Of a stretch of DNA of 64,000 bases, positions 22,760 to 25,430 are shown one piece after another (the first letter of the stretch is position 1; each line of letters begins with the position of its first letter). The stretch covers positions 1,550,001 through 1,614,000 of the forward strand of contig NZ_CP109104.1 of assembly GCF_035917675.1 (NCBI RefSeq), read 5' to 3'. The notes beneath the pieces are model-generated. The model was not told the DNA's origin, made no database searches, and saw only the letters and a list, made by a program, of their open reading frames with translations. The stretch is from Streptomyces sp. NBC_01775 (lineage in GTDB: Bacteria; Actinomycetota; Actinomycetes; Streptomycetales; Streptomycetaceae). Position numbers and translations under genes: made by a program.

Positions 22760-23178
22760 GCCGGCCCGGCCCGATCCGCGACGGGCGCTACCGTCCCGGA
22801 CGCGGCCGGGCCGCCGTCCCGGCCTGCTGCTCGCGGCGGGGCCGCGGCAAAAGCGCGGCCCAACTGCGGTAGGCACACGACCAGCCGTCCGGTCTCCGTC
22901 CCGGGCAGGCCGGGGCACCCGGCCGGGGCCGCGCAGGACCAGCGGGGCGGGGAAGCCGTGGAGCGGCCCCCGCCCACGGGACGCGGTGGCCGATACCCGC
23001 CCGCCCCCGCCGAGGTGGATCACCGGCGCCTCGCAGCGGCCCCCGGCTGCCCGCTCTGCCGTCCACGCCGTCGACCAGCGCACAACCGACGCCGTTCCGG
23101 AGCGGCGTCTCGCCCGGTTCTTCGCCGGCCACGACCACATGGTCGCGGCACCGGAGGAGTGGGCGCGCGTCGCTCTCC
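22760..23178. other. 420 bp without a supported gene
   Basis: Open frames exist on both strands but none combines a plausible start with recognisable sequence. One plus-strand stretch, ending where the inverted-repeat element begins, reads PERRLARFFAGHDHMVAAPE and may be the tail of a gene interrupted by the element; I cannot name it. No remainder of the mmpL gene was found here. Confidence 0.4.
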
Positions 23179-23370
23179 GGCCTGTCCGGCGGATCCTTCT
23201 GTTGCCCTCTCTCTGGGTGCTGAGCAGGGGGTGCCCCTGCCTGCACTGTGCAGAGTGCGAGTGGGTGGGGGCTGGTCGCGCCCACGCGGCGAAGCCGCAT
23301 GTATGACACAGCACCCCGCCCCCTCGGGACTCGCACCCGCGCCGGGCACGCATGATCCGCCGGACACGCC
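23179..23370. mobile_element. MITE-like element, copy 1 (192 bp)
   Basis: Ends are 17-bp inverted repeats: GGCCTGTCCGGCGGATC (23179-23195) and GATCCGCCGGACACGCC (23354-23370), one mismatch. The body is nearly identical to that of copy 2 (24962-25153) and in the same orientation; it contains the palindrome CTGCACTGTGCAG. No transposase is encoded, so it would be mobilised in trans. Its last base forms part of the TetR stop codon. No clear target duplication was seen. Confidence 0.8.
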
Positions 23371-23954
23371 TAGCCGTTCACCAGCGCGGCCACCAAGCGC
23401 TCCATGAGGGGCCGTGGGTCAGTCGTGCCCGGCCAGCTCGTCATCAGGAGGTGGTGGGCGGTGCCGACGACGGCGAGGGCCGCGGTGTGCGGGTCGGCGG
23501 TCTCCGCGATCCGACCGAGCCTCTGTTCGACCTTCAGGTAGTCGGTGACGGCTTCCTGGATCGCGGTGAAGCCGGGCGCCCCGCCTTCAAGAGCCTCGCG
23601 GATGCGCAGCGTGGCGGCGGGGCGGGTCATGGCGAGGCCCGACACCGCCGGGCCGCCGGAGTCGAACAGCGCGAGGACGACGGCGTCGAGGTTCCGCGCC
23701 ACGGTGCCCTGCCCGGCGAGTCCCGACAGCGCCCGTGCCTTCACAGCCGTCCGGGCGAACCGGTCCAGGCACAGCTCGGCGACGAACTCGTCGAGCCCCG
23801 CGAAGTGCGCGTGCAGCAACCCCTTGGCGCAGCCCGCCTCGGTGGTGACGGCCCGGCTGGTGAGCGCGCCGGGCCCGTCCCTCTCCACGACGCGCTCGGC
23901 CGCCGCGAACAGCCGCTCGCGTACGTCCGGTGTCGCCACTCCACGCGGTGACAT
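23370..23954 (-). CDS. TetR-family repressor of the element-flanked cassette
   Basis: About 194 aa from the ATG at 23954. Helix-turn-helix residues about 22-45 (SRAVTTEAGCAKGLLHAHFA; the central turn is Cys-Ala-Lys rather than the common Val-Ser), then a ligand domain (HTAALAVVGTAHHLLMTSWP). The stop TAG takes its final base from the end of the adjacent mobile element. Divergent from the methyltransferase gene with two operator-like repeats between, so it probably represses both genes and responds to a substrate of the methyltransferase or a toxic compound; this is inference. Confidence 0.88.
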   Translation of the reverse strand: MSPRGVATPDVRERLFAAAERVVERDGPGALTSRAVTTEAGCAKGLLHAHFAGLDEFVAELCLDRFARTAVKARALSGLAGQGTVARNLDAVVLALFDSGGPAVSGLAMTRPAATLRIREALEGGAPGFTAIQEAVTDYLKVEQRLGRIAETADPHTAALAVVGTAHHLLMTSWPGTTDPRPLMERLVAALVNG

Positions 23955-24027
23955 GGGCCTCTCTTCCGTCCTGCTTCTCTCGCCCTCAAGGGGCACAGCT
24001 CGTGGATGGTAGCGGGGATTGCCAGTT

Positions 24028-24062
24028 TGGGCACACGCCCATACTGTTTGGGCGCACGCCCA
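24028..24062. promoter_or_regulatory. Two operator-like palindromes 21 bp apart
   Basis: TGGGCACACGCCCA (24028-24041) and TGGGCGCACGCCCA (24049-24062), each preceded by TT, lie on the same DNA face two helical turns apart between the TetR and methyltransferase starts. They are strong candidates for the TetR binding sites. Confidence 0.7.
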
Positions 24063-24091
24063 TTCTCCGTCATCCACCGCAGGAGGCACCC

Positions 24092-24961
24092 GTGCCGGAC
24101 GTCGTCAACATCGAGCAGGCACAGGCATGGAACGGCCCCGAAGGCACCCACTGGGCCCGTAACCAGGACCGCTGGAACGCCGTGAACGAGGGCTTCAACG
24201 AGCCACTGCTCGACGCCGCCGGGATCACCGGGGACCACCGGGTCCTCGACCTGGGCTGCGGCTCCGGACAGACCACGCGCCTCGCCGCGCTCAGAGCGCC
24301 CCGAGGGCACGCGCTGGGCCTCGACCTGTCCGGCCCGATGCTGGCCGAGGCGCGGGCCCACGCGGAGCGGGAGGGCATCACCAACGCCTCTTTCACACAG
24401 GGCGACGCGCAGGTGTACCCCTTCGAAGCGGGCGCGTTCGACGCGGCGATGAGCCGCTACGGGGTGATGTTCTTCGCCGACCCCGTAGCGGCCTTCGGCA
24501 ACGTCGGCCGGACCCTGCGGCCCGGCGGGCGCCTCGCGTTCGTCTGCCCGGCCGATGCCGCGCTCAACGGCTGGGTGGCGGCGATGGCGACGTTGCACGA
24601 CTTCCTGCCGGCCGGCGACTTCGGCCGGCCGGGGCTGCCCGGCATGTTCTCCCTGGCGGCCCCGGACCATATCCGCGCGGTCCTCGCCGCGGCCGGATTC
24701 ACCAGCGTCACCGTCGACCAGGCACAGGCGTACGGGACATGGGGACACGGAGCCGAGGACGCGGCGGAGTTCCTGCTGGGAACAGGCCCCGGGCGCCACT
24801 TGATGGAGCAGGCCGACGCGACCGCACGAGTCCGCGCCCGCCGCACCCTGACGGAACACCTGCGCGCCCACGAGGCGGCGGACGGCACGGTCCGACTGCG
24901 CAGCACATCGTGGCTGGTCACAGCGGACCGCCCGGCCGGCCCTGCCGGACAGAGCGGCTGA
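24092..24961 (+). CDS. Class I SAM-dependent methyltransferase
   Basis: About 289 aa. Motif I VLDLGCGSGQTTRLA (about residue 50) binds S-adenosylmethionine; GLDLSGPMLAEARAHA and GDAQVYPFEAGAFDAAMSRY are motif II regions; RTLRPGGRLAFVCP is motif III. It belongs to the methyltransferase 11/25 type used on small molecules; the substrate is unknown. The GTG at 24092 follows AGGAGG (24081-24086). The stop codon is immediately followed by the second mobile element, so the gene fills the cassette exactly. Confidence 0.88.
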   Translation: MPDVVNIEQAQAWNGPEGTHWARNQDRWNAVNEGFNEPLLDAAGITGDHRVLDLGCGSGQTTRLAALRAPRGHALGLDLSGPMLAEARAHAEREGITNASFTQGDAQVYPFEAGAFDAAMSRYGVMFFADPVAAFGNVGRTLRPGGRLAFVCPADAALNGWVAAMATLHDFLPAGDFGRPGLPGMFSLAAPDHIRAVLAAAGFTSVTVDQAQAYGTWGHGAEDAAEFLLGTGPGRHLMEQADATARVRARRTLTEHLRAHEAADGTVRLRSTSWLVTADRPAGPAGQSG

Positions 24962-25153
24962 GGCGTGTCCGGCGGATCTTTCAGTTGCCCTCTTTCCTGG
25001 TGCTGAGCAGGGGGTGCCCCTGCCTGCACTGTGCAGAGTGCGAGTGGGTGGGGGCTGGTCGCGCCCACGCGGCGAAGCCCCATGTATGACACAGCACCGC
25101 GCCCCTTCGGGGCTCGCCCCGGCGCCGGGCACGCATGATCCGCCGGACAGGCC
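24962..25153. mobile_element. MITE-like element, copy 2 (192 bp)
   Basis: Same length and orientation as copy 1. Ends are GGCGTGTCCGGCGGATC (24962-24978) and GATCCGCCGGACAGGCC (25137-25153), one mismatch. The first base follows the methyltransferase stop directly; at the right end it cuts the mmpL gene after about 92 codons. A hairpin made of GCCCCTTCGGGGC-like sequence lies inside. Confidence 0.8.
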
Positions 25154-25430
25154 GTAGGGATGTGGCCGCACGCCGCGCGGCCGGGGTGCGGACGCCGCCG
25201 TCCGCCTCGGCGACGGCCACCAGATCGGGGCTCCCGGCGCGGACGTCGCGGTCGAGAAACGACTCGGCCCGCACCGATCCGGCTCCCGCCGGGTCGTAGC
25301 CGCCCGGCGAGAAGGCCGTACCCACGCCGAAGCCGAACACGGCGAGCGCGGCGAACATGGCGAGCAGCGGCGCGAGCACGGCCGATCGCCGAGCAGCCGG
25401 CGCGGTCTGCCGTACGCGTAGGCGGCGCAC
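25154..25430 (-). pseudogene. Truncated MMPL-family transporter, N-terminal 92 codons
   Basis: From the ATG at 25430 the protein begins with an Arg-rich segment, a membrane helix (APLLAMFAALAVFGFGVGTA) and FSPGGYDPAGAGSVRAESFL, then LVAVAEADGGV, which is the usual beginning of an MMPL exporter of about 700 residues. The frame then enters the mobile element and ends about 60 residues into it. The rest of the transporter is absent from the window, so element arrival or recombination deleted it. Confidence 0.75.

Follow-up and report, generated by a model that had tools for sequence, protein, structure and literature searches.

Two short repeats fit with single-base precision around a divergent TetR/methyltransferase gene pair in the window, the stretch of 64,000 nucleotides from Streptomyces sp. 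NBC_01775 (NZ_CP109104.1, positions 1,550,001 to 1,614,000) analyzed here. This exact fit probably arose from MITEs derived from IS1648 (IS5 family) that inserted separately at the 3' ends of a self-regulated, horizontally shuffled gene pair. In the order of events that we propose, two family members would have inserted one by one, each at a 3' end of the pair, with the TA in CTAG as the target; CTAG is rare in this genome and almost confined to nongenic DNA. The b end, which starts with G, would rebuild a TAG stop codon from CTA, and copies would persist mainly between convergent genes, sparing coding sequence and promoters. The strong hairpins of the copies may double as gene-end structures, and the two copies, once they lay 1.6 kb apart in direct orientation, would have swapped their centers by gene conversion.

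Geometry and mosaic structure of the two elements

The framed segment and its edges contain the following features (window positions).

22974..23171, + strand, remnant of the 3' part of a MarR-like gene, decayed; its similarity stops 7 bases before element 1
23179..23370, + strand, element 1 (el1), MITE copy; inverted ends 23179-23195 and 23354-23370
23370..23954, - strand, TetR-family regulator gene; 194 amino acids from ATG, TAG stop at 23372-23370
23371..23372, TA of the CTAG target adjoining the right end of el1; part of the TetR stop codon
24025..24066, tandem 21-bp palindromic operator-like repeats TTTGGGCNNNNGCCCAT, two copies, conserved in relatives
24092..24961, + strand, class I SAM-dependent methyltransferase gene; 289 amino acids, GTG start, TGA stop
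24962..25153, + strand, element 2 (el2), MITE copy; inverted ends 24962-24978 and 25137-25153
25155..25156, TA beside the right end of el2
25155..25430, - strand, start (92 codons) of an MMPL-type transporter gene, whose similarity breaks off at the outer end of el2

The first-pass annotation had described two 192-bp copies in the same orientation with 17-bp inverted ends, and both were located at the positions listed. The two copies are direct repeats of 192 nt on the + strand that align without gaps at 93% identity (13 of 192 positions differ), and their 17-nt inverted ends are 94% complementary in each copy. The 1591-base spacer and the exact fit to the stop codons on both sides are likewise borne out by the coordinates: the spacer (23371-24961) contains the TetR gene, the two tandem operator-like repeats, and the methyltransferase gene, base 23370 is common to the TetR TAG stop and el1, and the methyltransferase TGA ends at 24961, touching el2. 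The end types of el2 are swapped (b on the left, a on the right), and because of this swap the outer ends (el1 left and el2 right) form a perfect inverted pair of 18 bp, as do the inner ends. The left flanks read CTCC, not CTAC, at el1 and CTGA, without a TA, at el2; like the swapped end types, they speak against the separate insertions proposed here. Around the unit as a whole the outer flanks are CTCC and GTAG, which do not make up the target duplication that marks a composite transposon or mobile insertion cassette. When 40 places were drawn at random, 26% of the trials contained one or more pairs no farther apart than 1783 bp, and 6% contained two pairs closer than 2300 bp; the close spacing of el1 and el2, taken alone, is not improbable.

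The 13 differences leave an identical run of 81 bp (P = 0.008 by random placement, the run having been noticed before testing). The left arm of el1 is 95 to 98% identical to those of L004, L005, L007, L009, L011, and L012, six other copies in the same genome, and 85% identical to that of el2; the center of el1 is 99% identical to that of el2 and 55 to 61% identical (gaps counted) to those of the same six copies. The right arms do not separate the subfamilies (identity of 0.90 between el1 and el2 and likewise between el1 and L004). From these alignments, el1 and el2 look like members of different subfamilies that share an identical center, i.e., like mosaics, and gene conversion between separately inserted copies would be the simplest reading of that center. 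A Campbell-type integration of a circle, with el1 as A-left/B-right and el2 as B-left/A-right, is suggested by the end types; it is disfavored because the arms of el1 fit one subfamily and those of el2 the other (clear for the left arms only).

A dispersed repeat family and its likely parent

A blastn search with el1 gave at least 43 matches at no fewer than 40 places in the same genome (9.34 Mb, 2 contigs), a lower bound, since 40 of 156 first-look candidates were scored; these 40 places were analyzed. Exact GGCSTGTCCGGCGGATC ends occur 19 times in this genome, four of them in the el1/el2 pair, and with up to 2 mismatches the pattern is found at 67 places, compared with 27 for a reversed control pattern. 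The copies are short, have terminal inverted repeats, are dispersed in large number, and are too short for a transposase; together with ends and a target common to IS1648-type IS5 elements, these properties uphold the MITE-like nature assigned at first pass. Within the family, subfamilies differ by central module and by arms. Folding z-scores of -5.3 and -6.6 were obtained for the two elements; a terminator scan found no site inside el1 or el2, and Rfam gave no match. Among titles and abstract beginnings we found no literature on this Streptomyces repeat, which is not proof of its absence from print, and a search for IS1648 with Streptomyces brought up only a Lactiplantibacillus study.

In an alignment of 30 rows the canonical copy reads ..CTAC GGCCTGTCCGGCGGATCTTTC... 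...GGGCACGCATGATCCGCCGGACACGCC TAG... CTAC stands directly before the left end in 11/30 aligned copies and TA in that position in 14/30; TAG directly follows the right ends of L001, L005, and L012 and lies one base further on in L004. Canonical copies, e.g., L004, L005, L012, and L157, are flanked by TA at either end, and the TA within CTAG would represent duplicated target bases. Since the right (b) end begins with G (read inward), CTA plus G remakes CTAG, so that a TAG stop codon at that place survives.

Genes around the copies were called with a home-made gene finder, and the CTAG background was taken from 464 kb of the same genome. Of the 79 CTAG sites in this background, 61 are intergenic, 13 overlap called stops, and 5 fall within genes; CTAG is rare in this genome and almost only found outside genes, and about one site in six overlaps a called stop. 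A called stop is touched, or shares one base, in 10 of the 40 copies (L001-L005, L011, L012, L016, L024, and L150; for L011 and L016 measured from the match end, for L024 and L150 from ends extrapolated by 4 to 5 bases), and this contact can be explained by CTAG alone. The bias to convergent gaps exceeds what CTAG alone would give: of the 30 copies that could be classified (those with both neighbors called; 10/40 were not classifiable, including L030, which lies inside a called gene), 17 are found between convergent genes, whereas the same holds for 11 of 60 CTAG sites classed as intergenic or edge (Fisher P = 3e-4). The neighboring gene ends are 3' ends in 53/70 cases. Selection against promoter damage or a role at gene ends may add to the target preference.

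A second framed pair occurs in the same genome, where two copies flank the divergent PP2C/DUF456 genes (G000:C1:2095827-2098215, i.e., L387:2828-5216). The DUF456 stop directly abuts one element, the PP2C stop lies 100 bases past the end of the other match, and convergent genes are called beyond both copies. The framing differs from that of the TetR/methyltransferase pair in that these copies are inverted and the fit is exact at one of the two stops. Both 3' ends of a divergent pair point outward, so such a pair is the very arrangement that a habit of sitting at gene ends will frame.

Ends of this type are common to an autonomous element, being present in exact or near-exact form in IS1648-type elements of other strains. 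In S. chattanoogensis, a family end bounds an IS5-type element 3 kb from that strain's own TetR/methyltransferase pair. IS1648 on SCP2 and its relatives have CTAG flanks and CTGTCCGGCGGATC ends and encode DUF4096 (PF13340) and DDE_Tnp_1 (PF01609) domains. We compared 17 loci, not chosen at random (15 of the 30 matches listed, from 56 matching records, plus two S. chattanoogensis regions). Two inverted ends were found at 14 of the 17, with CTAG on both sides in 12/14 (TTAG takes its place on one or both sides in L378 and L374); L372 and L373 have one end only, and L385 has direct ends. Six of the 14 two-ended loci are plain elements of ~0.95 kb (two of them, L375 and L377, from a single strain), and 7/14 hold ~370 to 730 bp of extra DNA. 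In L371, L369/L383, L380, and L386, an extra gene lies between the transposase gene and the outer end, with CTAG on both sides, and encodes Imm7 (L371), GNAT (L386), or proteins of no known family (L369/L383 and L380); L381/L382 have a 0.6-kb extension with putative frames. At the remaining locus (L374:2507-3130, on a plasmid of Streptomyces sp. NBC_00105), a DUF6506 gene between two IS1648-type ends replaces most of the transposase gene, of which only the start is left, and this locus looks like a mobile insertion cassette. The passenger units represent 6 distinct elements, 3 of them with a Pfam-recognized passenger (Imm7, GNAT, and DUF6506). As a separate observation, the two direct ends of L385 (2403-3230, S. 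chattanoogensis) enclose a different methyltransferase gene over most of its length; the frame called for that gene extends through one of these ends.

From their terminal sequences and flanks, we propose IS1648-type IS5 elements as a candidate transposase source for the MITE family, an assignment that is new here. The likeness to IS1648, e.g., on SCP2, lies in the terminal CTGTCCGGCGGATC and the CTAG flanks; IS1648 measures ~0.95 kb and has a transposase gene, whereas the window copies measure 192 bp and have none, and the outermost bases differ (CTAC-GGCC versus CTA-GGCG). Mobilization in trans, as the first-pass annotation had supposed, is plausible, but the genome of the strain itself yielded no transposase with matching ends in searches that covered two families of transposases and end pairs deviating at no more than 2 positions; among the 67 places, the only inverted end pair 0.3 to 5 kb apart was the outer pair of the window. 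An origin from IS630/Tc1-mariner elements, an idea based on a reference title given in PMC2170065 on transposition to TA in CTAG, was rejected: the two DDE_3 loci of this genome lack matching ends, and the matching ends that were found belong to IS5-type elements. Likewise, 10 DDE_Tnp_1_2 loci of this genome and 30 from 61 genomes of the genus (a subset, many more matches being listed in those genomes) showed no convincing end pair around the transposase gene.

Known systems were compared on the basis of article excerpts (PMC3189936, PMC2170065, PMC10969869, PMC5444012, PMC6542083, and PMC13367494). MITEPsy1 of Pseudomonas syringae is described as a 100-nt element with 18-nt inverted ends that inserts after CTAG or YTAA with a 4-nt duplication, and its six copies are divided equally among interrupted loci, intergenic sites, and the interior of other transposons, two in each (PMC3189936); it resembles the window family in short length, inverted ends, and CTAG target, and its sequence differs. 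Mobile insertion cassettes (MIC231 and others) are presented in the excerpts as passenger genes between transposon ends without a transposase (PMC6542083 and PMC5444012). Measured against these descriptions, L374, with its passenger between ends and no full transposase gene, fits better than the window unit, which has no duplication at its outer ends and was seen as a whole at one location. TIME-COMPs, composites bounded by two Tn3-derived MITEs and predominantly located on plasmids according to the excerpt of PMC13367494, are similar in that two MITEs frame genes in direct or inverted order; as described there they belong to the Tn3 family and are mostly plasmid borne, whereas the window unit is putative, IS5-type, and chromosomal.

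The gene pair elsewhere and the outer edges of the framed segment

Among solved methyltransferases, the best sequence match of the window protein is MitM (E = 1.7e-16). The TetR/methyltransferase pair was matched in 60 of 294 other genomes of the genus at E ≤ 1e-100, some matches being partial. None of 20 fetched pair regions (two of them short contigs) has a flank in common with the window, and none contains a family match at E ≤ 0.01; flanks are shared only within the groups L096/L097/L099, L098/L100, and L102/L103. In ~1.5-kb flanks of 11 more distant relatives, short weak family matches lie 68 to 214 bp from the pair in two cases (L037 and L079). In a second, overlapping set, the first 52 of 67 listed loci were compared, the remainder being matches that are short or distant. 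The TetR gene is divergent in 47 of the 52, lies in another arrangement in 3, and is missing from 2. The 47 divergent loci fall into 36 site clusters, all apart from that of the window, and their only family match at E ≤ 1e-3 is a 20-bp end, which lies at a distance of 3.07 kb from the pair in one locus. Two or more TGGGCN4GCCCA operators were found in 45/47 of these loci and in 31/32 pairs of another set that includes the window, and annotated plasmid copies of the pair exist. The pair is found at many sites without full elements and is therefore, judging from these sequences, a portable, self-regulated module independent of the MITE family. The TetR stop codon lies inside an uninterrupted CTAG in 10/20 regions and 15/47 loci; in the other 10/20 and 32/47 relatives it does not, which counts against the reading as separate insertions.

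The outer edges provide the best evidence against separate insertions. On the left, an alignment of 205 columns gives 74% identity between the MarR-like remnant and L199, where the gene is a MarR match. On the right, longer MMPL homologues cease to match the window at 25155, next to the end of el2 at 25153; a transporter homologue in the same genome has 738 amino acids and matches MMPL, and most of the homologues listed are open frames of ~730 to 1030 amino acids (range, 210 to 1588). A similarity search of the window for the remainder of the MMPL gene found nothing. This break is unexplained by plain insertion at the methyltransferase stop alone, and el2 at least has therefore served as a border of a rearrangement. 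Searches with the left flank (392 and 295 genomes) and with the right-flank protein (199 genomes) turned up no empty site. In 15 regions around left-flank matches, nothing else was common to the window neighborhood except a few weak protein matches, and the site of L005 was not syntenic in 121 genomes.

Alternative explanations and implications

The first-pass annotation had seen in the exact fit a cassette that moves as a unit. On that account, the 1975-bp unit would have jumped a single time into an MMPL gene, by means of an IS1648-type transposase acting in trans on the left end of el1 and the right end of el2, and a later deletion would have taken the remainder of the MMPL gene up to el1. 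The unit has suitable outer ends, which make a perfect 18-bp inverted pair and, among the 67 places, the only inverted pair of such ends separated by 0.3 to 5 kb; passengers are frequent in IS1648-type units (extra DNA in 7/14, and a gene replacing most of the transposase in L374), and the MMPL gene is cut exactly where the outer end of el2 lies. The left side, however, reads CTCC and shows no duplication, and the flank there is a MarR remnant rather than MMPL. Whole cassettes at different sites, which the annotation had proposed to look for, were not encountered, as the gene pair at its many other sites lacks full elements at its edges; moreover, el1 and el2 look like different subfamilies, and similar framing surrounds the unrelated, resident PP2C/DUF456 genes in the same genome. 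Composite movement is possible, its positive evidence being the truncation of the MMPL gene and the tendency of IS1648-type elements to carry passengers, and we regard it as unlikely.

The broken gene at the outer border of el2, the decayed gene beside the border of el1, and the mosaic copies with their identical center would also be expected if an incoming MITE-TetR-methyltransferase-MITE segment had crossed by homologous recombination with resident MITEs behind a MarR gene and in an MMPL gene. Within each element, both arms agree with a single subfamily, a distinction for which the right arms are poorly suited, so such an exchange would need its crossovers close to the element centers and between copies of the same kind; the homology would be very short, and the searches found neither donor nor recipient. 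We consider this exchange distinctly improbable. Finally, the repeats might be kept as terminator- or stability-like structures, with selection on position and no insertion preference. A convergent enrichment that exceeds the CTAG background and the strong folding are in keeping with this idea, but the inverted ends, the TA/CTAG context, and the IS1648-type ends point to transposition, and the terminator scan and Rfam were negative for el1 and el2; such an origin is very improbable. Separate insertion at gene ends, possibly with some terminator-like role acquired by the copies, is the reading that we prefer.

This reading implies that a transposon target rule can mimic a designed cassette, as an end that rebuilds TAG lets elements abut genes exactly. 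A bolder extension, which we hold to be doubtful, is that IS1648-type ends form a widespread non-autonomous cargo system of Streptomyces in which single genes or self-regulated gene pairs are captured between spare ends, either solo ends or those of MITEs, beside their stop codons and moved in trans; the TetR/methyltransferase pair would be one such unit after capture, and the stop-codon target rule would keep cargo genes intact. For this Streptomyces MITE family, the comparison provides a likely type of autonomous parent, and the passenger genes in the IS1648-type parent group make cargo capture testable.
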